A stretch of DNA of 64,000 nucleotides, from assembly GCA_964036665.1 (NCBI GenBank), contig OZ038526.1, forward strand, positions 36,766,001 through 36,830,000. Direction: 5' to 3'. Source of the DNA: Gordius sp. MW1 (lineage: Eukaryota; Nematomorpha; Gordioida; Gordea; Gordiidae). Shown piece after piece: positions 14,691 to 51,183 of this stretch. A model generated the notes under the pieces. The model worked only from the letters and a program-made list of their open reading frames with translations, had not been told where the DNA came from and did not search any database. Each line of letters begins with the position of its first letter. Position 1 is the stretch's first letter. The position numbers and the translations under genes are program-made.

Positions 14691-15851
14691 TTATATGAGT
14701 AATATGTTTTCATCTTCCTCTTTTAGAAGAGGCCAGGAATTCAAAAAAGATTTGAAATTAAATTTTGCAATAAAGATGGCTATTGATTGTTTTAATAAAA
14801 ATGCGGGGGAATATTTGGAGGGAGGGGATCGCCTGCCTATTTCTTTGAATAAAGCCAACGCCATTTTTCCATAGGATCCTGAACAGGGGGAAACTATTGG
14901 GATAAAAATACTAGAGTCCAAAAGGGCCTTGTATTTTTGTTCTTCGGCGAGGGCCATGGGGTCATAATTAAGATTAGAGGGGGCAAATAGGTCTATGCAT
15001 GTAAAATTCCACTTTAAAAGGAGACCATTTTCCCATGGGGCTAGCGATGAACCGTCAGGACGCATTTGACCTTCAAGGGCAGGATCTGAAGGTTCAAGTA
15101 TGGATGGAATTTGGGCCTTTCTAAGGGCTGACTGGATAATAGAATTAATTTTAGAGTGTCGCAAGTGTCTAAATTTATTAAGTCTGCAGTGTAACGGGTG
15201 GCATGCTTCTTCATCCACAGGCAGGCTGCAATTTTTACAGGCATATGCCTTTGTGTATTTTTTTACAAGGCGTGGTGCTACATTGTAGGATAGCTCGCAA
15301 TCCTCTAACATCACATTGGAAAACCTGCTAGGAAAAGCCTCTAGCCATTCATGTCCAGATTTATCAAACACCAAAGATCTAAGGTTGTAATGTTGTTTGG
15401 TATCGCAGCTCGAAAGGAGATAAGCAACGGAGCGCGAAACCAAACATGCATCCCAATCCTTTTGATTTGGTGTTTGTGGTGGTGAGCTTTCTGGTAGAAC
15501 ATTTAAATTCCAAAGGGATAGGGACTGTATAAATGTTTCATCAAGGGGGTATGAGATTAGTTTGGCGACGATGGATTTTGAGGATAAGTGGGATGATATA
15601 AATGAGGCCAAGGATAAGGAGCTTGGTGAACGAATTCCCAGACCCCCAGATTTTGTTGGTAATGTGGCTTGTAGCCAGGAGTTAGTATCGAATGATAAGT
15701 TCAGGGTGGATTCGATGACAGATTTTATGTGGGTTTCGAAATTATGTAAAATATGTGTATGCAAAAATGCGCTTGTTGATCGGAAGCAAAATAATATTTT
15801 GGCTATATTAAAGTAGTTTTTCAATATGTAAAATGCGTGATGGGCGGGCAT
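14691..15851 (-). CDS. RT retroelement, C-terminal half with CCHC and PD-(D/E)-like domain
   Basis: A 386-codon open frame on the - strand, the best-kept copy of this family. It continues upstream in decayed form through the RT core to about 17710. Features in order: a helical connection region (about 1-190); a Cys/His motif CKNC-x7-CHPLHC (about 208-222); RHSKINSIIQSAL; LEPSDPALEGQ; MRPDGS; and KWNFTCIDLFAPS (about 280-295). The order Cys/His cluster, RH-x-N, EP, PD, D parallels the restriction-like endonuclease of R2-type non-LTR elements. I infer that this domain cuts the target site, with a catalytic set formed by the PD and later acidic residues. The closest family in memory is an RT group abundant in sponge, cnidarian and crustacean genomes. 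It is part of a damaged element, so activity is unlikely. Confidence 0.75.
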   Translation of the reverse strand: MPAHHAFYILKNYFNIAKILFCFRSTSAFLHTHILHNFETHIKSVIESTLNLSFDTNSWLQATLPTKSGGLGIRSPSSLSLASFISSHLSSKSIVAKLISYPLDETFIQSLSLWNLNVLPESSPPQTPNQKDWDACLVSRSVAYLLSSCDTKQHYNLRSLVFDKSGHEWLEAFPSRFSNVMLEDCELSYNVAPRLVKKYTKAYACKNCSLPVDEEACHPLHCRLNKFRHLRHSKINSIIQSALRKAQIPSILEPSDPALEGQMRPDGSSLAPWENGLLLKWNFTCIDLFAPSNLNYDPMALAEEQKYKALLDSSIFIPIVSPCSGSYGKMALALFKEIGRRSPPSKYSPAFLLKQSIAIFIAKFNFKSFLNSWPLLKEEDENILLI

Positions 15852-17712
15852 AAGCTTAAAAATTTCATTTTTACATTTTAAATTATTAAGGTTATTGTCG
15901 AGATAACTTCTTAAGCTTTCAGAACCGCCTATTGGAGAACCTAGTAAAAATAGCCGTTTTTCTCGAGGCGTAGAAAAGATGCAAAGGATGGGTGGATGTC
16001 AGTTGTGCTGTCAGAATAAATTTCGCATTTTGTCGCGTTTAATGATAGGTTAAATTTTATGTAGTATTCATTAATGATGTTAAGAGCTTTGATTAGCTCT
16101 TCCGTAATGCCTGATAGGGTGCAGGCGCGTAGCCAGGATTTTCTCTAAGGGGGGGGGGGGGAAATTATAAATTTTTTTTGTAACATTATACAAAAAAACA
16201 AAATAAACATTTGATATTTATTTTTCGGGGGGGGGGATTTCCCGTTTCCCCCCCGTCTGGCTACCCCACTGATAGGGTGGCATCGTCGAGATACCATACG
16301 TTTAACCTCAAATTGCATTTGTCGTTGATTTCATCTATTAATGGTTTGATAACCATACAAAATAAGGGGGGGGGGCCAAGGGGGTCCCCCTGTTGAATGC
16401 CCTCAGCTGAATCAATGGAAAATTGTCCAAATTTTAAAATAGACGGGGTGCCATAACTTAAAAGAATATAGTTGGCATATTGGGGAAAAGAATCGATGAA
16501 AGTGTTAATAAAGGAATTTCTATTTAGGTTGTTAAGGCATTTTGAAAGTCTAATTTTATAAAAGACTCGCTAGGCGGTAAATTTTCAAGGGTCATTCTAG
16601 CAGCATGCGTAGCTATTTCACAATACCCTTTAACACCGAATCCTAGCTGATGAGGCCTTAGAGATGGGGATAAATTATGCTTGATTGATTTGCAAATAAC
16701 TTCAAAATTTTTCACATATTTTTCTTTGAACCGTATTCATCCGATGAAAGTTGTCGTTTTCAGACGTGGTTTCTATGATCCCAAGTAAAAATTTATCAGA
16801 ATCTAAAAACTATTACTTTGAATCATGATCGCAAGATATGATTCTCCAGAAGACTCCGCCGCTGCGATCGGTCTTAGAGTTTTGTTCTGTTTTTGAATAG
16901 CAAGTAACTTGGCCCCGAAAATTATTGGTCGTACTTCTTGAGGAATGTTGCCATTAATAATTAAATTGCAAAATTTAGTTAGTGCAACGAGCAGAATTGA
17001 AGAATTGATATTTTCAATTTTAATAAGATCTTGAAGATAAATTGATTTGATACCATCCAAACCTGCAGCATAGTCAATTGGAAAGTGGATAGCTTCACTA
17101 ATTTCTGAGGATTCTAGGGTAAAGTTGGATGGCACAAAGGGGAAGCAATATTGAGACAAATGTTTTGGGTGTTTGGCAAGGAGGTGTTCATATGATTCCT
17201 GACTAGGGGTTACAATTGGATTGTTCTCCTCTAAAAGTCTCATGGCTCCTTTTATATTAAAAGAGTGAATTTTTCTGGATATCCTAGTTGCTGTTTGTTT
17301 TAGAGTTGATGATATTAATTTTCGTTCATCAGGTGTATAATCTGCAAGTGTATTATTAATGTCGAAATTCGAAATTTCATTTTTAATTTTTTGTGATAGG
17401 TTTGTTTCCTTAGATTTGGGTGGGGCCAAAATGTGAGAAGAGAATTTGATTAATTTTTCCCATGCAACAATGTTGTGTGGGTCACTTATGATAGTATTTA
17501 GCAAGTTTATTAAAATTGTTGCAAACAAGGTCGTGCTCCTCTTGGAATCTTGAAATTGTGGGGGTGAAGCCTTGTGCCAAAAGGACTTTACTCCATGTTG
17601 AATCAGGAGGCTCATCACTGTAATAAACATTATTAGGGGTAGCTGAGAATGTACTAGAGTTAGGTATAATGTCAATATTATTATTAGATCTAGTGCTGTA
17701 GGAGGACATTTT
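15852..17712 (-). pseudogene. N-terminal and RT core of the same retroelement, frameshifted
   Basis: Reading leftward on the - strand: start MSSYSTRSN at 17709; a frameshift near 17490; a long piece 17675-16803 with DYAAGLDGI and PQEVRPIIFGAKLLAIQK then LRPIAAAES (fingers motifs of RTs); stops near 16800; motif A region at 16715-16524 with LRPHQLGFGVKGYCEIATHAAR and FIKLDFQNAL; then the catalytic YLDD near 16280-16290. A MITE interrupts the frame directly after YLDD. RT thumb sequence (FLLGSPIGGSE) follows at 15880-15960. The breaks make it a pseudogene, but the parts are in the right order and spacing for one full element. Confidence 0.8.
16122..16271. mobile_element. hAT MITE inserted in the RT gene after YLDD
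   Basis: A 150 bp insert with ends CAGGCGCGTAGCCAGG and GTCTGGCTACCCCACTG, flanked by a perfect 8 bp duplication ATAGGGTG (16114-16121 and 16272-16279). Removing one duplication and the insert restores the RT reading frame across the site. This copy shows that the whole GGCGTAGCC family uses 8 bp hAT-type targets. Confidence 0.9.
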
Positions 17713-36746: not shown

Positions 36747-37845
36747 TTAATGTGTACAAACCACACATGAGAGCTCTTTGCCAGCGGGGTAAAGGCTAGG
36801 GGGTAAATCGCCTGGCATAGTTTCAGTAACGTAGAGAGCAGCCCCATCTCCTGGTGTTTGATTGGCTTCATAATCGGCATCTTCATCGATGCAAATATAC
36901 ACGAATCGTGAGAGCTCTTCGTTACCGGACATTATGTAACCACGATATTCCATTGTCCAGCCGGCGGGACAATTGGCAAAGGCTGGAAATACGTATAGAT
37001 CCGGTCTGGGCACGCAACACAGAGCGCAAAGTCCAACCTTGCAATTTTATACATGAAAGTAAATAGTTAAAGCTTGTATCATCAAATTTCATGCTTATAA
37101 CTCGAAACTTTTTGGGATTTAAGAAATTATTGTAAGGTACTAGTTTTTTTATTTAACTTGATAGAGCACCGAAGCTAACTCGGCCCTTATATTAACTAAG
37201 AATTTGATGTTAAAGCGCAAAATTGTTTGCTACTTAGACACACTATGAATTAAATTCACTAACACTTTTATGTCAAACAGCTTTTATAATTTATACTACT
37301 ACATTAAAACTCTGCCTTAAACAAAATAATTTAACCACCTTAAGACTTGTCATAATACATAAAAACACGTAAAAATCATGATCCTAACAGAGCAGTTCTT
37401 TTAAAGAAGAGTCAGAATAGCGATTTATAAGATGCGTCTCAACCTTAGCTTGTCCTTATATCTAAGCGTTGTTATTTGGGACCTTAAGTCTACGGTTATT
37501 TCTTGAATTAGAAAAATTTAATTTTAATTAAAAGATTGGGATTCTTATATTTGATACTAATATGCTATGCACGTAGTGGTTGTATTATGCCTACCTTAAA
37601 TTTGTGGCCTCGCTTGGTCAAGGGTGAATGTGTATCGTATATTCTGTATTCCGCGCCATATATGTTGGCCTCGGATTGGAAACCGTCGGCGAATAAATCA
37701 AAAGTTGGCCGCTTGGGTAAGCATTGATAGTCATAACCACTCCCCGAAAAGAAGTAATGACCGCCCGATATGTAGCCTTTCAACATGTTTGGGTGATATG
37801 CGTTAGATAAAAAGGATTTTGAACACTTATATTGAACCGTGTTTT
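36747..37845 (-). CDS. Collagen exons 12-13: C4-like C-terminal domain
   Basis: Exon 12 (37845-37595) starts with two nucleotides that complete a Glu codon from exon 11. It reads to KRGHKFK and contains [12 protein letters not shown] and NIYGAEYR. Exon 13 (37037-36747) opens [12 protein letters not shown] and ends VVCTH-stop. The two halves each carry a CxxGYISGG / [16 protein letters not shown] unit, the two-fold layout of short-chain C4 collagens. This domain likely drives chain assembly at the C-terminus. Confidence 0.85.
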
Positions 37846-40800
37846 CTGATTTATTTATACCAACCTTATAAAAATCGTTGATGTAAAGGTTGGACAGGTA
37901 AATCTAGGCGTCTTAATTACCCAGACCAGCCCGTCCTAAATGATTAATTAATGACTTCACTAATAAAAATACAAGAATTGCGGTTTAATGGCCGAGACTA
38001 AATTTTTGTATGCAAAAGTTTCATGATTTTGAGCAAGAAATTTTTGAAGGTTATACTATTTATTCTCACATTTAATAATACACAATTGATAAATAAGTAG
38101 TCATCTGCTTAAAATTTGTTAACGAGAGAAGGAGGATGTTATTTAAAACTAAAAGTTATGTAAGGAACAAGATAAATAAAATTTTTATTTTAACAATGAC
38201 CAATTTAGCAATATATCTTTACTAAATATACACTTTTCATAAAAAATATAAATTTATCAGAGTATACCATCGTATATTAAGTTAGCATCCCGAGATATTC
38301 CAGCGCAAGTGCCTTTACCCCACCTCACGTAACAGATCCATTGCTCCATCATAACTATATACAATTTATAAAATCATTGGTGCGTTGTGTAAAATAACAT
38401 AAAATAGAATACCCAAAAAAAACTATAATCAAAACACCGATTGCTTTCTTTATCTTAATTATTAGTATTGTCCAAGAAATGGAAGAATCGTTAAACTATG
38501 GATGATTAAGGGAGCAAGCACCATGATTAAAATTAATGATATATAGTTGAAACGAAACTATCTTGCTGTCGCTCCTATTATATGATATACTTCTACTAAA
38601 TTCATAAGACTGAACTAAAAGCACAAAACCCATTAATTAAAAAATGCCGCATTTTAAACAAAAATTATAATCTATATCAAAATGCAAGTTTCCTAATTAC
38701 TCCATTACCTTGTGGACCGGCAACTTGGCAATTGTTACATTTTCCAGGTTGACCATTAGGTCCCGTTGTACCATCTTTACCAGGACTACCATCTAAACCT
38801 GGTGCGCCTGGTAAACCATCTGGACCACCTTCACCTCTCGGTCCTGGTTTTCCTGGGGTTCCAGGTCTACCAAGGGGTCCAGGGGGGCCTTTGGGACCTG
38901 CATCCCCTGGTCTACCCGGTTGACCATCTGCCCCTGGCAATCCATCAGTTCCAGGGCTTCCTTGGGGACCTTGATCCCCTAATTCCCCAGGTCTCCCTTT
39001 GTTACCGAGTGGACCTTGTTCCCCATCTTTGCCCGGAAAGCCGGGCTCCCCTTTAGATCCTGGTGGTCCCTTAATTGAAGAGAACCAAAAATAATTATAA
39101 GCAGTGGTCTTTGCGAAAGTGCCAGTTTTATATAAATTCTCATTTTTCGAACTAATAGGCGAATGAGTTGTGAGTGAACGATTGCCTAGTTTGATATTGC
39201 AAAGATGATATTATTTAGTTTAGTGGGTGGATTTAAAATGAAATCTCCGCCAGATTTTATCAGAACACTATTTAAAGGAAACTAAACTATAATTTATATA
39301 ATCAAATTGTAATTTTATGCAACACTGAAAAGTTTTTCGGTTATGCAGTTTATATGATATATATAATTTAGTCTATGTATATAATAAAGATGCGATAAGC
39401 ATTAATGCAAACATCATAACATTATAATCTTTTAAGCATCTTTAATTATACATATTAAATTCTATTTTCTTTAATTTTGTTATAATTTCCATATTATATT
39501 AAATTAACATAGAATTTTTAATTAAAAACGAATTAAGATAGTTAAGGAAAATTCTGTAAATATTACAAACCCTAGCTCCAGGAGTACCACGCTCTCCATT
39601 TTTGCCAGAACTTCCATCCTGCCCAGGAAACCCATCATTACCGGGCAAACCAGATGCACCTGGAAGTCCGTCTAAACCAGGTCTACCATCCTGACCCTAA
39701 ATTTATAATTCATTTAAAATTATAAAATTAACTATTAATTAGTGAAAATCTTATTCATATTTTTAGAGGATCAATCAACTAAATTATAATCTAATACAAA
39801 AAACCTGGAATTATGCAAATTTTTATAAAACTTGTGACGTAAGTGATAATCTGAAATGACAAAAGATTACAAAACCAATTATTATAACATCTTTTTTGAC
39901 TTATTGTGTATTATACCATTCCTTTATTTCGAAAAAGATGCAAATTAAAACAATGGAATGATAACTTAATGTTAATATCTAAGTTTAAGCTAATGCTTGA
40001 TTCTAAAATCCATGTTAAATTTTTTTGCCTGTAATAACCGAAGCGAAATATTTTATTCATTTTTATTTGAATTTCCTAAATCTTTTTATTATTTTACCTA
40101 CGAGTTTTAGTTATTTCTTGGAAGATTTAATTTTTAAATAAAAAAAGTAAGAAAATTTTAGTATTCATACAGGCTCTCCTGACTTTCCATCGAAGCCATT
40201 TTGACCATCAGACCCTGGGTTGCCTGGTTGACCATCAACCCCATCCCTTCCTGGCTCTCCATCAACTCCTGGTCTACCAGCTTCTCCTTTATCACCCTAA
40301 ACCATTTTACATACAGCTATTTTGAAAAACATTAAATTACAAAACGGTTTTTATATTATTCATAAGTTTTATATGACTTGAATGTCAATATTAAGTAAAT
40401 CTTAATATTTGGATAATTAATTTTGAAACTATATGAATAGCACCATTTCCTTAATATATTAAACTCACAACAACAAGAAATAGTCTCTTAACAAGTAATT
40501 ACTGAAATTTACCGTTAGATAATCCCTTTATTAAATAACAAAGTTAATTCTAGCCCTAATTTAGATTCGTTAACTTTTAAAAATTAAACATCAAAATTTT
40601 ATTAATGTCTCATGCACTTTCTCTCCTGGTTGAAATGGTTGCCCATCTTTTCCAGAGTTCCCGTGGATACCGTCTTTACCAGCATCTCCATCCGAACCAG
40701 GGGCCCCTCGCTGACCATCATTACCTGGAGCACCAGTTTCACCCTTTAATTCATTTTAAGTGAAATGATTCATTTAATTTTCTTTATTTCCCCTCTATAC

Positions 40801-43800
40801 TAAATTTTAAAAGTTCCGCATTTACTATGAACTATGTATGCTCCGATATCTTATAGCTAATGTTCGGATTTACATAATTACTTATGTTATATATACATAC
40901 AAAAAATTAGAAAATTAAAGTTACAGACTGTTGAATTAGTTTTTGCTTTAGTATATTATTATGGGCCTACCCACGACCCCCCCCTCTCCCCATCACCCCC
41001 ATTTAAAAGGGCAAATTATTTGGCCCCTATACCCCCCCCCCTCCCCACCTTTTCAAGTATTCTGGCTCCTAATTCACTTTATTGAATAGGCTGTAATAAA
41101 ATTGGGAGTTTAGAAAAAAATTAAGCCATTATTATTGAAATCAGATCCTTAGTTATGATAGAAAATAATACTCGATTTGTCCTTGGCTGTTCAATAGATT
41201 TGCTTAAATCTTTATAGGATATAAACCTTAAGATTTAGAATGACGGTAACTAATTTAATAAATCGTTAAGATGCCTCCTAAGTTTGCATTCAAAACATTT
41301 CATAAACATCTTAAAATAAAAATGACAATTTTTAATAGAAAAAATAAATATTAGCCCATAGATAAACAGGCAAATTTTGGGAAATTATATGAACAAGTTT
41401 ATGCAAGCAGACTTATTGCAAATTACGAGAAATCCTGGCCTCCCTGGGGCACCATCATTCCCATTAGATCCTCTATTACCAGGTTTTCCATCATTGCCCC
41501 TTTCACCTGGTTGACCATCTGTCCCATCTTTACCTGGAGCCCCTGGATTTCCCTTTAATAACAATAAAATTTTAAAGTCCCCCATATTAAAAGTTCCATT
41601 AAAACTTGTTTTTAAAATGAGAAAAAGTTATCAAGTGTGATAAATGATAACTCACGACATTTCCATCGAGTCCCGGTGTGCCATCATTCCCAGTACTACC
41701 AGGTTGACCTCTGTTGCCATCTCTACCAGCACTACCTGGTCTTCCTTTGGGCCCTGGACTTCCAGACGGACCAGTTGGACCCTAGACAAGGTTTATATAT
41801 ATTTATGGCATTAGAAATTAATTGATTTGTTTTTACTAATATAATCACCAATCAAGATTCGCTCAAAGCCAAGTCCATACAAAAAACTTCAGCGATCATT
41901 TTAACTTGAATGATTTGAACTCTAGTAGATGATTACAAAACATGCTTTTTTATTATTTGTTTCTACTAATTTTCCTGACTTTTTCTTATCTTCCTCTGTA
42001 ATCAACAGCCACTACATAACATTATTTTAAATAGCTTCTGGTGGTAAAAAAGAATCTAATGTTTTTCATAATAAATAATCGTTATCGGATGTGCCTAATA
42101 TGTAGCTAGCGTATATTTTTTATTTTAATCTTTATTTGCTATGGAAGCGGGAAAAATTGAGAAGACAAATTTTGCAGGAAAACGAAAGCATTTGTGGAAT
42201 CATAGAATAACGCGAGATATGAAAATGCACGAGATAAAGAGAGATCTATGTATATATTTGGAGACAAATGGAAATTAATGCTGAAAGAACTGACCACCAG
42301 CCTAGATGATTTCACAGTCATAGAAGTGTATATTTTTCATTCTTTTAATTAAATGTAAAATATATTTTAGCATGGGACATACACAATTATTTGGAAATAA
42401 ACCTATATTGCAAAAAAAACAAAATAAATAATATAATTTAAAAATTTGAAAATATAATATTTACATCTTCTCCAGGTGCACCAGGTTCACCATCAAGACC
42501 CTCAATTCCTGGATTTCCATCTCGACCTGGCTCTCCATCATTACCGGCCGTCCCTGGCTGCCCGTCTCGTCCGGGATTTCCAACACCTCCCTTTTATTCA
42601 TTACATGCAAAATGGAAAGTTTAAAAATTATTTCATAACATAAGCTTAATGTCACTAGTATGTATGTTATTCTTTTATTTAAACTTTATATAATTCCTTA
42701 TTATCCTTTAAATAAAATAATAGTATAACAAAGTATTTTAATTGCCAACGCTAAAAATTTAAGTCTCTTTTTTGCAATCACATGCATTTTAAATATGACG
42801 TTTACATAATATAAATATTGTCTCAGAAATGTAAATACTTTTTATATTTTTTGACAAAGCATACTTTTTTAATTAAAACAATGAATTTAAATTGATAGTA
42901 CAAATTAAAACTTTTAATAATTTTAATAAATAATAAAATTGTCTCCTGCAATTAAATTCTGAAATATACTTTTCTCCCAGCCTTGCCAGCAAAACCATCT
43001 CTCCCAGGATTTCCATCGGGGGTTGGTTGGCCAGGGGCCCCATCTTCACCAGCTAAACCATTTTGCCCGTCGGGTCCAGGGTCACCAGCAGGACCCTGAA
43101 TATTAAATGCACATTTTAAACTTCCTTTTCCTTTTCAAAATTTTTACAACATTAAATTTTTAAATTGTCCCGAGGGCAGCCAATTCCTAAACAAATTTCA
43201 AAATATGTAACCTCCATTACACAGGATCCCAAAGAATTCTTTTACATCAAGCAGAAAATCACCATGGAAATTGTATCTAATACAATCTCAATCCATGGAT
43301 CGATGCCAGCTCATTAATTTAATAAATTTTTGCATATAACATACTTAATTATTTGGAAATAAACTTCTATCGATTAAAAAAAATAAAAATAAAAAAAGTA
43401 AATTGTTTAATTAGGCTCACGAAAATTGCAATTACTATTCTAGTTTAGCGCTTTGGTATTTAAATGTCTTAAATGGGATATTTTATTATTAATTTAACAA
43501 GTAAACCATTTTTAACATTTTAAATTTAATTTTTTTAAATAAAAAAAGAAGTAATTTTTAGCTGTTTAAAATTACTGACCTGAGGACCGACCCTTCCAGG
43601 TCCCCCATCTCTACCAGGAGATCCCGATTTACCAGGAGCACCATCATTTCCTGGCCTACCTTGGTCCCCAGGGGGTCCAGGTAACCCTTGTTCACCCCGA
43701 GACCCTGGCTGTCCATCAATACAATCCCGACATTCTATGTGATTTCAATCATTCATATAAATATTATTTTAATATTTTACTTTGTTTTCTAAATATATAG

Positions 43801-46800
43801 TAATATAATCTTTCGTTTCTTATAATTCTGAAATGACTTCTATGCTTTATAAACACGGGCGTAGCCAGGGGGGGAGAAGAGGCTGCCCCCCTCAATCCAA
43901 AAATTCTTTAAAATTTATTAAAATTATGGCTAAAACTTCCGAAAATTATCATATGCCCCGCCCCCTCTAATTCCAATGCTGGCTACGCTCATGTTTATAA
44001 ATATATTTAATTATGGGCAACGTCCAATATTATTGTTATCAAATCTTCTTTATTTTGTTATTTGGGTTGCGACGACATAAACTATAGGGGTTTTTTACAA
44101 TATTTTAGCTGTGGTGTTCTCATTGAAAGTTCGGGTTTTATTAAGTTGTTGCGGGGGCTAATGATGAAATTCTGGCATAAAACACAAACTTCTAACTTAT
44201 TACAAGTATTTTTTTTCGCTTTGAACTTATAGTCTAAATTAGTGAATTAGGTTGGAAATTCAATAAAAGGAGTATACTTTTAGTTAATATTTTGTTTTAA
44301 ATACTAAGCATATAAAATTATAAGGATTTAGGGGGTGAGCTGTCTTTCCATGCTTCTTTTCAGCTATGTTCATTCATAATTTAGTAAATTTGTACGTGTT
44401 AAACGTCTTTAGATTTTACTTAATAACCGCACTAATTATTAGCATAGGCGTAGCCAGGTTTTGGATTAGGGGGGGGGGCGAAACGTTTAAAGTTCAATAA
44501 GGGGGGGGGGGGGGCAAATCCAAAATTTTGTAATTTTTAAGGGTTTTTGCATTGAAAAAAAACCCTGCCCCCCCCCCCCCCCAGCTACGCCCATGGTTAG
44601 CAAATTAAAATCATTGTTAGACCAAGTTATTCATGTCCACTTACATGGGGGCTAGAACTTCAGCTGCCCCCCCCCCCAATTCATCCAATTGGATTTTATG
44701 GTTTAAAAATAAAATAAATGTAATTCAGTATATCCCATATTATGACTATCACCTTTTGTGTTTATAGCCAGAGATAGATCATAAGTTTGATCAAGCTTCA
44801 AACTATACGCTAGTGTTGTAAAAACGGCTGGGTTTTGTTTGGCCCACCTTTGGTTTATCTGAGACGGATGCTGGTCTACTTTTCAATTTTCGACTAAGCC
44901 TAGGTGTCGACTAAACAAAACAGACCAAAAATTTTTGGTCTGTTTTGTTTAATCGACTAAAACCACAAAACAAAACGCAGCCGTTTTTACAATAATATAC
45001 GGAAATCAATTAAGTTTAAGTGGAGATAGTTGCAGTGGCGTAAATGGGGGGGGGGGGGGAAATGGGAAATTCCCCCCCCCCCCCCCCCCGGCAAAAATTT
45101 GAATTGTTTTTTAATTAATAACTAAATCAAATGGGTTAAAATATTATAGTTTAGTTACATCAAAGACTTAAGACACTTATAAAAACCTAGAAACATAACA
45201 TATACATTTAATTTTTTTGATTTAATTTTTGACAAAATGCATCGTAAAATTTCCGAATATGATTGTGAAAATTGCTATGAAAAAAAAACTTGTTTGAACA
45301 TTTATTTCCCGTGAAAACAGCAGACAGCCCCAGAAAGTAGATAACTAATCGATTATTATAATGTTCCTCATTCTATATATTATTAATACTTTATCATTTA
45401 TCATATTTGTCTTAAATTCTCTGCTAGATCACGGTTTGATAACTAAATTGCCTGCCAAGGCGAGCCAAAACCCTTTAATTGCCCAATTCACTAATGCTGT
45501 CCGAACAGCCGGGCCCAAACACGATTTTAAATATCAAGAATTAATTTTGTCTTATTTTCAAAAAAATTTGGTCTAATTCTAGGATTTTTATATATAAAGT
45601 AACAAAAAATAGTAAACTATATAAAAAATCTCATTAGGGTGCCCGCCCAGGCCTACTTAAAAATCTCAATTTAGAACATTAGCCTGCCCGACTCCTTATC
45701 CAAGTGGGCCCAGTAGCGAGCCCGACTTTTTGGTTGTTTAATTTATACTTTTAATTAGAGGTCTGCATGGGCTGATATTTTAGGTTCAGGCCCGGCCCAT
45801 ACCCGCACAAATATTATTTTTTGGCCCGCACCCGGCCGGCAAAAAAATCCCAAAAATTGCGCCGCATCGGGCCATCACGAGTAAAAACAATTCTACGTTG
45901 TTTCAAAATTATTTATTTGCATAAAAACTATTTTGTTTTGTTCATAAAATAATTTAGCTATAGCATACAAAATAGTTTTTAATTAGAAATTACCGTTTCT
46001 GTTCAAACTAAAAGCTGTTCATTTCATAAGCTAATATAAAATGCTTGATGTCTTGTGGGGTCAGTGTTGTTAGGGCAAGGGTTAGGGTTCTCAATTAGAT
46101 TTGCTTGGCTTTTGAAATGATCAGCTTTTAGTTTGAATAAGAATCGAATTACAATTTAATATTGTCATTTAAAAATAAAAGATTATCTATTCTATCAGGC
46201 AATAATTTCGTTCTTCTCTGTTCTATAAGGCGACTTGCTTTACTGAATGTGCGTTCACTCGTAGCACTGTTGGCTGGAATTGACAAAAACTGACTAAATT
46301 TTTTAAGTTTGATAGCATAAGTTGGTGTTCTTTCCACCAGAAAATTACGTCTAGCTTAGTATCTTCAGGTTTTTCCGTTTCTCATCGTCCCAAATAGAAA
46401 ATATAAATTGCTTAGTGTTGCACACCTGAGCTGGATTACTCTTAGTTGGACGACTTATGCAAGAAGATCTATTCAAGAAGAGCCACGTTCTTCTTGAATC
46501 ATTTCTTTAAAAATTCTGTTACAGTAGTTTATAAGAAGCTATTTTCATATTCGGGTAGCATTTTTAAGCGAAACTAAGAAACAAGAAAGGTTAAAATTTT
46601 CTGATAAATATCTATTTGACTTTGAAATTAGCATAGTTTGGGCTCTTGACTTCAATTTGTAGACCTTTAAGTAAACAGGATCACCATTATACGTAGGAGA
46701 TGTAATTAATTTGCGATGCTTTTTAATGATGTATAAAAGGGTAATATTCTATAGAGTGTTGGTGATGCGCTTCTAACTCGATGCTTGCTTTTTTATAAGG

Positions 46801-49800
46801 TAAGCATATTAATTAATAGCATGATATATTTATGGAAATGCCTTCAAGGTTTCCAATAAAGTTTTGCAAGATAAAAAAGTGATTATTTATCATACATCTC
46901 ATGCAAAATTTTTAACATAATAATTTTTGAGTTCCACCAGATTGTTTTTCGGAAAAATAAATTTTTTTATTGTTAAGCTAGTAAGTGAATTTTTTTGATT
47001 AGAATTATAGTATAAAGTACTTTTCAAAGCCCAAGCCCGGCCCGCACTTTTTTTATTGCTCTGTTTTAGGCCCGGCCCGCGGGCCGGGCTTGGGCCTGAG
47101 TGCCGCGGGCTGGCCCAGCCCATGCAGACCTCTATTTTTAATTACAAATAAAATCTAAAAAAAATGTTTGCCAGCTTTCCCCCCCCCCTCGAGAAAATTT
47201 TGGCTACGCGCCTGGATAGTTATAATCTCAATTAGAATATTTGTAACTCTAATAAACATTACAATTATTTGATACCGAAACTAAATTAACTAACACCTTT
47301 TTTATTTCGATCTGCATGACATTAATAATATTAAACATTCTTTAAGCACTTTGTTAAGAGAACTATTACCCTTTAAAAATAAAATATGATAGGAGTTAAG
47401 GCCTCCTCAATGCTGATTTTGGAAACCTCCAGTTTTTCCATTAAATTCATATGATTGTAAAATACAGCTTTCTAAATACGCCTCAGGATTTCGAATCGAA
47501 TATTTTTGGATTCGATTCGGATTCGAATTTTTTCAAAAAAAAATATTCGATTCGAGATTCGACGAATATTAAAATGAAGATTCGATTTGAAAAAAATATA
47601 AGGATTTGAAATCGATTCGAATATTTATTAAGTTTTTTTAATTATTAAATAACACATTAAAAAGGCTACTATGAATTTTAATTTGCATATACATTTGAAA
47701 GATTTATTTAAAAGATATTTAAAAATACACACATCAAAAATAAAAATATTAAAAGCGAACAAAAACTATGATATGTTTAAGACAATCAAGAACCGTTTTT
47801 AGCCAACTTTTAAGGCAAATTATCTTCCTAACACTAGTTTTAAACGATATGGGTTCCGGTTAAAAATATTCTCGGGGTAAATAATTTAGGTATAGAGAGA
47901 AGATTTTTTGCCAATTTTTGGATGGCTGGAAAACGACGTTGATTCGATTTCCACCATTGTAAAGGCTCAACATTGGAGGCCACACGTGGTTTGTGCAAAA
48001 ATGTCTCCAATGATGACTTCGCGTTCATGTTGCTCTTAATAAACGATCCAGTGTTGATACCTCGCTAGTTGATACAAAATCGGGCTAACTTCATATAGCA
48101 GTTTTCCAGTCATCTCTAATTTCTCTACAGGATATGCAATGTACATCACCCCAGGGGTGATAAAACTCAAATTTTGAACCTTCGCTAATAAGGCTATCTT
48201 CTTATTGAATGCCATATATTTTCAATTTTCTGTTTGGCCATTTTGACAGCATGATCTTCTGTGCCTGTTTGATAATATACCGGTAATACCTAGTTAATTG
48301 TGGGATTTGCCCCCCGGATTTTAAATTAGTTACACTGTAAAAGGGAAAAAGTATCAATTTAACCGTTTTAATTTGTTCCCATTCAATGTTGGATAGCAAT
48401 TCCTCCTAAGAGGAATTTAAAGGCCAAATCCAATGCCTGCCTTACTAAAATAGCCTTTTCTATCACTATATAGGTGCTGTTCCACCTGACTACCATGTCA
48501 AGTTTTGCCTTTATGTAATTAATTTTTGGGTCAAATTCTTAACATATAGCCTTTAATCGTAAAATATTTTTGTGCTATCTTGCAATTTTTTTTAAAGTCC
48601 ATATTTTAATTAAATTGTGATCCTCGTTCTCCATAACTTATGTAAGTTTGAAAAATTTTAAATTAAGCTTTTTCAAATTGTAGCAGGAAAAATAACTAAA
48701 ATGCGGTAAGATAAAAATAGCTAAATATTTGAATCCCGTCTATTTAAATTAGACTAAAAAAATAAAATTGGAATTTTCAAGGATTCGATTCGCATTTTCG
48801 AATCCTAGCAGCGTAAATATTCGATTCGAAACTTACACATATGGATTCGAATTCGGATTTGATTCGTAATTTCAAATCGAATCGAATCTCGAATATTTCC
48901 CAGAGGCGTATTTTTAAAGCTAAATATGACAAGAGCATAGCTAAGACTTAAATAGAGGTGGACACTTATGATTTAGGAAGGGGCAAAAGGATTCTTATTT
49001 CAACCATATTTTTTTATAAATTTTTAAGAAGGGGGAGGAAGCTGCCCATCCCTACCTTCCTTTGGCTACGCCCATGTTAACGCGTTAAATCGACAGAACA
49101 ACAACAGATGATATTTATTATGCTTTAAAATTGTACGATTAGCCCTTTTGCCTCAATTTCGTATTAACTAACATAACGCATTCTTTAAACAAATTCATCA
49201 CAGGTTTAATTTCATAATTTATCTTTAATTTTATTTTGGATTCAAGGTCCCTTTTAAAGGGGAAGTTGAAAATATGTTACTTATATAACGCTCTTTTTAT
49301 ATTATTATTTGATGTACTATGTTAACTACTTGTCTGGGCGTAGCCAGGATTAGAGTTAGAGGGAGGCATTAATAGTTTAAGGGGACAAAATAATAGTTTT
49401 TGAAATTTTTGGCCATAATTATATTAAATTTTAGATGATTTTGGGATTTGAAGGGGGCAACCGCCCCTTGCCACCCCCTGACTACGCCCATGACTACTTG
49501 TATTACAATCAAATATTTATATTAAATAAATAATTATTTGTTTGAAAACATTATAGTTTACATTAAGAGAGGATGTGGGGGAGGGGGGTGGGTGCTGAGG
49601 TTAATACGCGATTGCAGTTTAAGAAGGACATGGGCTTATGGATATAAAGGTGTCATAGTGTCGATATATGGATCAGATTAATCACTAATTTAAAATTCAC
49701 TCAACCAAACACATTCCCAGCCCCCCCCCCCTTCATCTCTTCCCACTTCTTCCTTCCCCTATTTAATTTTACACCTTAATACCTTCCTTATATATGGGTC

Positions 49801-51183
49801 ATGTAAATTTTTTCAAAAATAAAAGCATTAAGATCTCGCTCTTCCCATTGCAAAAATGGGTAGCAAGGACATTAAGACAAGAGGCGGTGCGCTTATTTAT
49901 GTATAAAATTAGGGCTAAATCCGCTTTTTAGCCTTGCTCTGGGGTTAATGTGTCCTAAATGCGGGTAGTGTTTGACGTGTAATGTAAGGAAAACAAGTTT
50001 TTTTAATTTATAAATTTGCCACTTAATACCCCTTTAAATATGATTCCCCCCCCCCCAATTTCAGTATAAAATTTAGCCTAGTAGAAGGGGGGGGGGGGGA
50101 GGGGGAGGTAGGTATGCACGAATTGAAAAGCAAATCTTTTTGTAAATATTTAATAGATCTAATATGTATTAGTGTGAACAATTGGACAACTTTTTAATAA
50201 TTAATTAGCACTTGATATTGTTTAAATTTAGAAAAAGTTCATTTAATAGCAACATTGTTAGACTAATAAAAAAAATATAATTAATATTTACAATTTTGGA
50301 GGTGTTCAAATATTTTTCCTTATTAAAGGACAGTTTATAGTCTCGTTTATATTTAATTCTCAAACTAAAAATCATTTCTTGTTATAAATTATTTTTAAAT
50401 TAAATCAAATATATGAGCAAATTTTGTTTAAATTTAAAAATTTTATACTTTGAGAGTAATCGCCTCCGACATAACTTCTTTTGTTTCGAATTTGATATTG
50501 ACCCAATTGCAGCATTCTAGCTTTAGGTTCAGACGTTTGAGCTTTAAGCTATATTTCATAAAAATCATTTAATATTAATTTGTTCATTACTAAAACTACC
50601 ACCTAATTTAGAATTTATTTGAGTTATATGGGTAGAGTAAAATTCCATATGATTCAATATTATTAGATGATTTTTACGTTACCTATCGATAGACCATTAA
50701 TAAAGTTTAATAAAAGTACATTATCATTTACTAGCCTAAAAGCGTAGAAATTCTGGAGATCCATTAAATTATTAATAATATGTATAACTTTTGCTAATAT
50801 TAAATAAATTAATTTAAAACCTTGGCATATTCCGAGAGCCCATTGATTTGGTGAAACAAGCGTTGCATAGTAGTGGAATTCATAGCTAAAATTTCGGCTT
50901 GTAGCAATTCTGTGTTCGGAGTTTCTATATCGTTTCCGATAATATTTTCTTCTATATCATATTTTTCTTCGGTTATTTCCGTAAGAACGAGAGCTTTATT
51001 GAATTTTAGGTATACAATTGGTAATAATAAGGCACAAGCCGCAACGGATAAGACAAAAAGACCCGCAATTATAGAAACTATGCTCGATTTCCCTTTAGAA
51101 AATGGTGTAAAGGACACATTTTCAACATGTTTCAATTTAGATTTACTCCCTTTCTCATCACTTTTTCCAGTCAAAATATCCAT
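36747..51183 (-). CDS. Membrane-anchored collagen with C4/spongin-like C-terminal domain
   Basis: Thirteen exons on the - strand join in frame to 800 residues plus stop: 51183-50821, 50548-50449, 43734-43580, 43095-42970, 42590-42465, 41781-41656, 41552-41427, 40743-40618, 40296-40171, 39696-39571, 39069-38709, 37845-37595, 37037-36747. Order: Lys/Ser-rich cytoplasmic tail (1-33); membrane segment (about 34-59, [20 protein letters not shown]); stalk with N-x-S/T site; furin-type RNKR (142-145); CRDC (156-159); Gly-X-Y triple helix from 162 to about 610 with breaks at Thr231 and Phe411; CNNC (611-614); then a 180-residue Cys-rich domain. That domain has [47 protein letters not shown] and ELSCVVC, as in short-chain C4 collagens. 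No signal peptide, so a type II protein like MACIT collagens, probably shed by cleavage. The host intron 50448-43735 is filled with transposons. Confidence 0.9.
43854..43993. mobile_element. hAT-type MITE with perfect TTTATAAA duplication
   Basis: 140 bp, ends CACGGGCGTAGCCAGG and CTGGCTACGCTCATG, flanked by TTTATAAA at 43846-43853 and 43994-44001. Lies in collagen intron 2. Confidence 0.9.
44443..44595. mobile_element. hAT-type MITE (CATAGGCGTAGCC) in collagen intron 2
   Basis: Ends CATAGGCGTAGCCAGG and CAGCTACGCCCATGG, with long G and C runs. TTAGCA on both sides is a likely remnant of the target duplication. Confidence 0.8.
44816..44994. mobile_element. MITE with TTGTAAAAACGGCTG ends
   Basis: Inverted ends TTGTAAAAACGGCTGGG and CAGCCGTTTTTACAA. 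The interior is a palindromic run of ACAAAACAGACCAAA and TTTGGTCTGTTTTGT. About 180 bp, non-coding. Confidence 0.75.
45756..47134 (-). mobile_element. Nested hAT element with GGCCCGGCCC subterminal repeats
   Basis: Terminal inverted repeats TAGAGGTCTGCATGGGCTG and CAGCCCATGCAGACCTCTA. Flanks CTTTTAAT (45748-45755) and TTTTTAAT (47135-47142) match at seven of eight. GGCCCGGCCC-type words cluster at both ends (45790-45880 and 47030-47120). A transposase end is encoded on the - strand. Confidence 0.9.
46149..46337 (-). pseudogene. hAT transposase C-terminus (dimerisation region)
   Basis: The - strand reads [20 protein letters not shown] and [15 protein letters not shown], the conserved end of hAT transposases (SATSERxFS, the Glu being catalytic, then a helix used for dimers). 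The rest of the transposase is not readable, so this is a remnant inside 45756-47134. Confidence 0.8.
47477..48910 (-). mobile_element. hAT element with GATTCGAATCGA subterminal words
   Basis: Ends TACGCCTCAGG and CCAGAGGCGTA, flanked by TTTCTAAA (47469-47476) and TTTTTAAA (48911-48918). Both ends are packed with ATTCGAATC and GATTCGATTCG words (47490-47600 and 48775-48900). It carries decayed transposase pieces on the - strand. Confidence 0.9.
47840..48400 (-). pseudogene. hAT transposase fragments (ZBED/Ac type)
   Basis: Piece 48399-48202 reads [20 protein letters not shown], matching the mid-region of Ac-type transposases (LxxxEWxxIxxLxxIL-PF). Piece 48028-47840 reads [20 protein letters not shown] then [15 protein letters not shown], the conserved WW-K-N-x-RFP-x3-LA-x3-LSIP region. 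The following catalytic segment is degraded and frames change between pieces. Confidence 0.8.
48955..49077. mobile_element. 5'-truncated MITE (CATGGGCGTAGCC family)
   Basis: Retains ATGATTTAGGAAGGGGCAAAA and the right end CTTTGGCTACGCCCATG. The left end is missing. Confidence 0.65.
49334..49493. mobile_element. hAT-type MITE with CTACTTGT duplication
   Basis: Ends CTGGGCGTAGCCAGG and CCTGACTACGCCCATGA, flanked by a perfect 8 bp CTACTTGT at 49326-49333 and 49494-49501. Confidence 0.9.
50449..50548 (-). CDS. Collagen exon 2: linker with RNKR furin-type site
   Basis: 100 nt between ATATAG acceptor and gtataa donor. It is open in the frame required by exon 1 (phase 0) and ends in phase 1, exactly what the next exon needs to give KCRDC. 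It encodes [20 protein letters not shown] then RNKR-S. It is too short to stand out alone, but phase and context support it. Confidence 0.75.
50821..51183 (-). CDS. Collagen exon 1: cytoplasmic tail, membrane anchor, stalk
   Basis: 121 codons in phase 0, starting [12 protein letters not shown]. The tail has nine Lys before a hydrophobic run of about 25 residues, which fits N-in, C-out insertion. The stalk is acidic ([12 protein letters not shown]) and holds NST near residue 105. The donor is gttttaa, the same unusual form as the donor of GNB5 exon 3. The + strand open frame at 50873-51199 is a shadow of this exon. Confidence 0.85.

Follow-up and report, generated by a model that had tools for sequence, protein, structure and literature searches.

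A hairworm family of putative membrane-anchored collagens with a C4/spongin-type C-terminal domain

We analysed a 64,000-nucleotide stretch of the genome of the hairworm Gordius sp. MW1 (Nematomorpha), here called the window (contig OZ038526.1, positions 36,766,001 to 36,830,000), and identified on its minus strand (51183..36747) a gene for a collagen chain with a predicted transmembrane (TM) helix close to the N-terminus and a C4/spongin-type domain at the C-terminus. The gene belongs to a family, which, in the reading that we favour with moderate confidence, encodes membrane-anchored precollagens that combine an N-terminus of the nematode cuticle collagen kind with a spongin/C4 C-terminus, a relative of the NC1 domain of type IV collagen, and that would serve in cuticle fibres. 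This reading is based on the architecture of the chain, the size of the family, the co-occurrence of both ends in the same genes, and the conserved R-X-K/R-R and cysteine motifs.

Structure of the gene

Splicing of its 14 coding exons gives an open frame of 2421 nt, made up of 806 codons plus the stop. The 13 introns all have GT-AG borders and matching phases, and the first in-frame stop is the final TAA; at the level of sequence, the 14-exon gene is confirmed as real and intact. An earlier, sequence-only reading of this DNA had placed the limits of the gene at the same two positions, and the order of parts that it proposed (Lys-rich tail, membrane anchor, stalk, RNKR, CRDC, Gly-X-Y, CNNC, C4-like domain) recurs in our gene model; its matching of phases also stands, and its tally of 13 exons and 800 residues is revised to 14 and 806. 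The stronger donor of exon 6, GTGAGT, preserves the Gly-X-Y register and, because it is taken as the exon end, exon 6 joins a row of seven consecutive exons (exons 4-10), each of exactly 126 bp, or 14 Gly-X-Y triplets.

By hydropathy and the gene model, the TM helix spans residues ~34-54, and is followed by RNKR (142-145), CRDC (156-159), CNNC (611-614), and the C4-type domain (~620-806). Between the two cysteine motifs, the Gly-X-Y region (162-610) takes up 449 residues, in runs of 23, 59, and 65 triplets separated by two short interruptions. The exons, all on the minus strand, are listed below with window coordinates and the evidence for each.

Exon 1, 50821..51183, minus: basic N-terminal tail, TM helix (~34-54), and start of the stalk, residues 1-121 (gene model, hydropathy, paralogue profile)
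Exon 2, 50449..50548, minus: end of the stalk and RNKR furin-type site, 142-145 (gene model; matched by exon 2 of the paralogue P1)
Exon 3, 43580..43734, minus: CRDC, 156-159, and first Gly-X-Y (gene model; P1 has the same phase-1 junction)
Exon 4, 42970..43095, minus: Gly-X-Y, 126 bp, containing the first interruption (gene model)
Exon 5, 42465..42590, minus: Gly-X-Y, 126 bp (gene model)
Exon 6, 41656..41781, minus: Gly-X-Y, 126 bp (gene model)
Exon 7, 41427..41552, minus: Gly-X-Y, 126 bp (gene model)
Exon 8, 40618..40743, minus: Gly-X-Y, 126 bp, containing the second interruption (gene model)
Exon 9, 40171..40296, minus: Gly-X-Y, 126 bp (gene model)
Exon 10, 39571..39696, minus: Gly-X-Y, 126 bp (gene model)
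Exon 11, 38709..39069, minus: final Gly-X-Y and CNNC, 611-614 (gene model; PF01391 matches here)
Exon 12, 38268..38354, minus: start of the C4-type domain, YVRWGK... (gene model, C4-domain search)
Exon 13, 37595..37776, minus: middle part of the C4-type domain (gene model, C4-domain search and alignment)
Exon 14, 36747..37037, minus: end of the C4-type domain and stop codon (gene model, C4-domain search and alignment)

Intron 2, the largest of the gene, harbors fragments of a hAT transposase in minus-strand frames (window 46152-48064; PF05699, E 8.9e-11 and 2.3e-9).

A family of C4 collagen genes

The genome (211.8 Mb, 12 contigs) was searched with two C4-domain queries, which returned 38 and 32 stretches. 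When same-strand stretches within a few kb of each other were grouped by eye and a weak stretch (C5:17099034, E 5.3e-4) was excluded, 21 places of C4-domain genes were counted. Outside these, about eight further collagen places were recognized by eye in a collagen search for which 150 of 326 candidates were scored. The nearest paralogues lie at 16426758 and 16444588 of contig C4, with 66% and 61%, respectively, across the C4 domain, and both have TM exons upstream; another C4 gene, at C5:1190667, is likewise preceded by a TM exon.

In at least 12 of the 21 C4 genes, a TM exon of the kind seen in the window gene lies no more than 13 kb upstream in the same orientation. These are the window gene itself, P1, P2, g4, g5, g6, g11, g14, g15, g16, g18, and g19. 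For the remaining nine, either a TM exon was not found or the upstream DNA lay outside the DNA inspected; for g9 there is a weak candidate (12.3 bits), and the TM frame at g20 is of a different kind. The association also holds when the search starts from the N-terminus: 10 of the 11 genome matches of the g14 query, and as many of the 11 of the g11 query, lie within 13 kb upstream of a C4 gene on the same strand, and at E<=1e-5 all matches do (nine of nine and ten of ten, respectively; both lists include the query itself, and the N-terminal exons of g14 and g15 are identical). The chance of a random match falling upstream of a C4 gene corresponds to p ~0.0006, with the 13-kb limit chosen post hoc.

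Motifs between the two ends are conserved as well. An R-X-K/R-R site lies between the TM exon and the collagen region in 12 of 12 genes, a count for which most paralogue exons were attributed from their location and strand, without splicing, and from a listing filtered for such motifs, and C-x(1-3)-C cysteine motifs precede the first Gly-X-Y in all 11 genes considered (g15 not included). Because there are 21 C4 genes, 12 of them with a TM exon of the same kind, the window gene is, as judged from the genome sequence, one member of a family architecture and no lone fusion. The sequence-only reading had suggested a new collagen class; given the TM exon in 12 of 21 C4 genes, this is better described as a family architecture.

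Two of the C4 collagen genes, g14 and g15, form a tandem pair (G000:C2:21705078-21722881), and their identical N-terminal exons point to a recent duplication.

Exons 1 and 2 as part of the gene

Intron 2 spans 6.7 kb and contains transposase remnants, which is compatible with exons 1 and 2 being part of another gene and the collagen-C4 chain having a secretory first exon of its own. We consider this highly improbable. Exons 1 and 2 were sought among the six-frame open reading frames (ORFs) of >=20 aa in the window with queries derived from paralogues. A profile of nine other N-termini, which excluded the window gene and included g9, itself a weak candidate, retrieved exon 1 as the top match (i-E 5.1e-5; 0.038 for the next one listed). 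The top match of P1's exon 2 was exon 2 of the window gene (E 1.1e-7, next 0.48). Moreover, the paralogues have the same exon order: P1 shows, by eye, RNKR-TYVAGEYLQ, a phase-1 intron, CKAC, and Gly-X-Y, corresponding to RNKR, a phase-1 intron, and CRDC in the window gene, and both genes, also by eye, join exons 2 and 3 in the same way (phase 1, A|AA, right before CxxC). The presence of a TM exon upstream of 12 of the 21 C4 genes points in the same direction.

The C-terminal domain

To characterize the C-terminus, we aligned 10 of the 21 C4 domains, picked as those mostly contained in one or two exons each, and found 22 invariant columns. In a PDB search with the resulting profile, all six matches at E<=10 were type IV collagen NC1 domains; the best one (E 5.7e-6) is a chimeric protein with six NC1 domains, and E values of 0.041-0.62 were obtained for single NC1 chains. 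None of the 10 domains matched the Pfam C4 NC1 family, and no collagen family was matched in Pfam and NCBIfam. Spongin short-chain collagens, too, are reported to be remotely akin to type IV NC1 (work cited in PMC12549020).

The domain carries motifs such as YVRWGK, CLP, and CVVC, which we take to be signs of the spongin/C4 family. Thus, the identification of a C4/spongin-type C-terminal domain, proposed in the sequence-only reading by likeness to short-chain C4 collagens, is supported, and the label rests on the NC1 kinship together with these presumed signature motifs. Spongin/C4 short-chain collagens are secreted via a signal peptide. In the window gene, an internal helix (34-54) follows a basic tail, which, by hydropathy, suggests an anchor.

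Affinity of the N-terminus

We scanned 11 N-termini (g5 was not included, and g15 equals g14) and found that 7 of the 10 aligned ones match the Pfam family Col_cuticle_N (PF01484), all below the curated cut-off (best E 2.8e-4, 21.4 bits vs 23.5). Col_cuticle_N ranked first in six N-termini and second in one, and none of 10 shuffled N-termini, with one shuffle each, matched it. Across the whole genome, this family gave seven matches, none above the cut-off (best E 0.06), five of which are upstream of C4 genes; the other two have no Gly-X-Y frame alongside. For single sequences, the tie to Col_cuticle_N is suggestive; judged by the genomic placement of the matches, it appears stronger. The window gene is linked to Col_cuticle_N via the profile of its paralogues and not via its own N-terminus. 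The TM helix, the RxxR site, and the cysteines beside Gly-X-Y are all present in the window gene and its paralogues. The Col_cuticle_N matches suggest that the N-terminus is better likened to nematode cuticle collagens than to the membrane-associated collagens with interrupted triple helices (MACITs). The earlier proposal of a type II membrane protein is supported by the sequence insofar as a type II-like topology and a furin-type site are concerned. When the N-terminal profile was compared with PDB, it gave seven matches, all with E 0.058 or worse and none a collagen.

Several results weigh against the reading that we favour. No sequence scored above the 23.5-bit cut-off of Col_cuticle_N, another family outranks it in g19, and the window gene (at E<=10), g16, g9, and g6 do not match it at all. 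A plain genome search with the window N-terminus recovered itself and exon 2 of P1 (E 0.015) and no further TM exon; the window N-terminus is absent among the genome matches of the g14 and g11 N-termini; and the TM exon of P2 appeared in the g14 search at E 0.19 only. The positive-inside charge pattern is unclear (over 15 residues, +1 inside and +1 outside in the window gene, -4 and +1 in P2), and the Gly-X-Y blocks are longer than those of C. elegans cuticle collagens (PMC11304992). A coiled coil in the window stalk, of the sort that follows the TM helix in MACITs, was rejected by shuffle comparison in a simple heptad test, in which 95% of the shuffles scored equally high; when the stalks of seven paralogues were treated likewise, between 3% and 31% of the shuffles scored as high as the stalk itself.

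Two other explanations of the N-terminus have to be weighed. The likeness to Col_cuticle_N could be convergent, arising from the combination of a short hydrophobic helix and a subsequent Pro-aromatic motif in an anchored C4 lineage without a special tie to nematode cuticle collagens; the consistently sub-threshold scores, the confinement of the match to ~30 residues of the membrane helix, and the 4 of 11 scanned N-termini without a match are compatible with this. However, single shuffles of 10 sequences produced no match, just seven matches occur in 212 Mb, five of which precede C4 genes, and the furin-type site, cysteines, and Gly-X-Y follow downstream in the order known from cuticle collagens (PMC11304992), so that we regard convergence as unlikely. 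Alternatively, the chain could be a MACIT-like adhesion collagen of muscle, synapse, or epidermis, retained in the membrane or shed, that gained a C4 domain. An N-terminal TM helix, a furin-type site, interrupted Gly-X-Y, and edge cysteines are indeed common to the hairworm chain and MACITs (PMC4678570). However, MACITs have in common a highly conserved C-terminal region, in place of which the C4 domain stands here, and most invertebrates in a survey carry MACIT genes in single copy (PMC4678570), as opposed to the anchor in 12 of 21 C4 genes; the N-termini, furthermore, lean to Col_cuticle_N. Nematode cuticle collagens, too, are described as MACIT-like but lacking the MACIT C-terminus (PMC11304992). 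An adhesion collagen of this type therefore seems quite improbable, and the MACIT kinship put forward in the sequence-only reading is not supported because the C-terminal region is replaced by a C4 domain and the paralogue N-termini point to cuticle collagens.

Proposed function

For the favoured reading, a family of membrane-anchored precollagens, a plausible sequence of events can be drawn by analogy with C. elegans cuticle collagens, every step beyond the architecture being an inference. The chain would be inserted into the membrane in type II orientation during its synthesis, and the C4 domain would align the register of three chains and trimerize them. Disulfides at CRDC and CNNC might then lock both ends of the triple helix, and a furin/BLI-4-like convertase would cleave after RNKR; the freed collagen-C4 trimer could finally enter the crossed collagen fibres of the hairworm cuticle, in which collagen fibres form a trellis (PMC10380579). 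Of the cuticle collagens of C. elegans, roughly two thirds are predicted to be type II membrane proteins. The convertase BLI-4, acting at RxxR, promotes the secretion of the two that were tested, and mutating their cleavage site leads to the same failure (PMC10538796). Chain linkage in nematode cuticle collagens is thought to involve the cysteines beside Gly-X-Y (PMC11304992).

Evolutionary implications

To our knowledge, the identity of the hairworm cuticle-fibre collagen and the origin of the nematode cuticle collagen family are both unsettled. We found no literature joining the terms "cuticle collagen" and "short-chain collagen" and, judging by title, no paper on hairworm collagen genes; subscription papers were mostly outside this search. 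Spongins are stated to occur across invertebrates except ecdysozoans, with C. elegans and Drosophila named (PMC5395295). They are thus reportedly missing from ecdysozoans, yet C4 genes are present here, which raises the possibility that cuticle collagens derive from C4 collagens. Tentatively, nematode cuticle collagens might descend from anchored C4/spongin-type collagens. Nematodes and hairworms would then share an ancestor whose cuticle was built from such chains; the C4 domain would have been kept in hairworms, whereas in nematodes it would have disappeared and the triple helix become shorter. If this scenario, which we deem possible rather than probable, is true, C4 collagens were retained in the earliest ecdysozoans.

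Chains that start like cuticle collagens and finish with a C4 domain would bridge two collagen families so far unconnected in the literature found, and a hairworm C4 family would contradict the printed absence of spongin-type collagens in Ecdysozoa (PMC5395295). The origin of nematode cuticle collagens also becomes testable across the genomes of hairworms, priapulids, kinorhynchs, and enoplean nematodes. The anchored C4 architecture is a variant seen in one animal genome, and may also occur in other phyla.

Mitochondrial contig and other observations

Contig 12 of the assembly is mitochondrial (14,798 bp) and contains dozens of inverted repeats within protein genes. The perfect repeat arms reach 108 nt in nad1, the longest seen, 95 nt in atp6, and up to 98 nt in the last 4.8 kb. 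Mitochondrial inverted repeats are reported in all four hairworm species studied, those in atp6 and nad1 being present in all four, and the most conspicuous such case outside hairworms is a gastrotrich, with repeats of up to 60 bp (PMC6649704). The gene order (cox1, cox2, atp6, cox3, nad3, nad4L, nad4, with nad1 on the opposite strand; ORFs named by eye) fits the blocks described for gordioids (PMC10380579). The repeats thereby mark the source, with high confidence, as a member of Nematomorpha, and on their account a cnidarian or sponge origin was rejected. A near full-length nuclear copy of cox1 was detected at G000:C8:2829490-2830827 (408.2 bits vs 410.5 for the mitochondrial cox1), and more cox1-like pieces are found on C1, C3, C4, C5, and C8.

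Within the window, there are 11 occurrences of GGGCGTAGCC or its complement (e.g. 22477, 24072, 43857, 49064, and 59917), often adjoining long runs of G or C, as if this motif came from a short interspersed repeat. Two minus-strand frames of 386 and 290 aa (14691-15851 and 16803-17675, respectively) without a clear Pfam match may be remnants of mobile elements. The contig that contains the window, C8, has 37.4 Mb and is the longest of those compared (C1 not included); C2-C7 descend in size, and C8 is out of size order, as in assemblies that list the autosomes by size and place a sex chromosome behind them.

Comparison with known collagens

The hairworm gene shares features with four kinds of described collagens and differs from each. 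With type IV collagen, the likeness is limited to the remote similarity between NC1 and the C4 domain; the hairworm gene has no Pfam NC1 match, its helix is shorter, and a membrane anchor is predicted. MACITs (XIII, XXIII, and XXV, with COL-99 among the homologues in invertebrates), which were compared by description, resemble it in their type II topology, predicted for the hairworm gene, and in furin-type site, and interrupted Gly-X-Y, whereas the hairworm gene has a C4 domain instead of the MACIT C-terminal region. Nematode cuticle collagens of the type II membrane group, such as SQT-3, share with it the N-terminal membrane helix, the RxxR site, and the cysteines beside interrupted Gly-X-Y (PMC10538796, PMC11304992); the hairworm gene differs in its C4 domain, its 147 Gly-X-Y triplets, and, for the window gene itself, the lack of a Col_cuticle_N match. 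Finally, spongin short-chain/C4 collagens have the same succession of Gly-X-Y and a domain with remote kinship to type IV NC1, to which the hairworm gene, coming from an ecdysozoan, a group reported to be without spongins (PMC5395295), adds a putative membrane anchor and a furin-type site in front.

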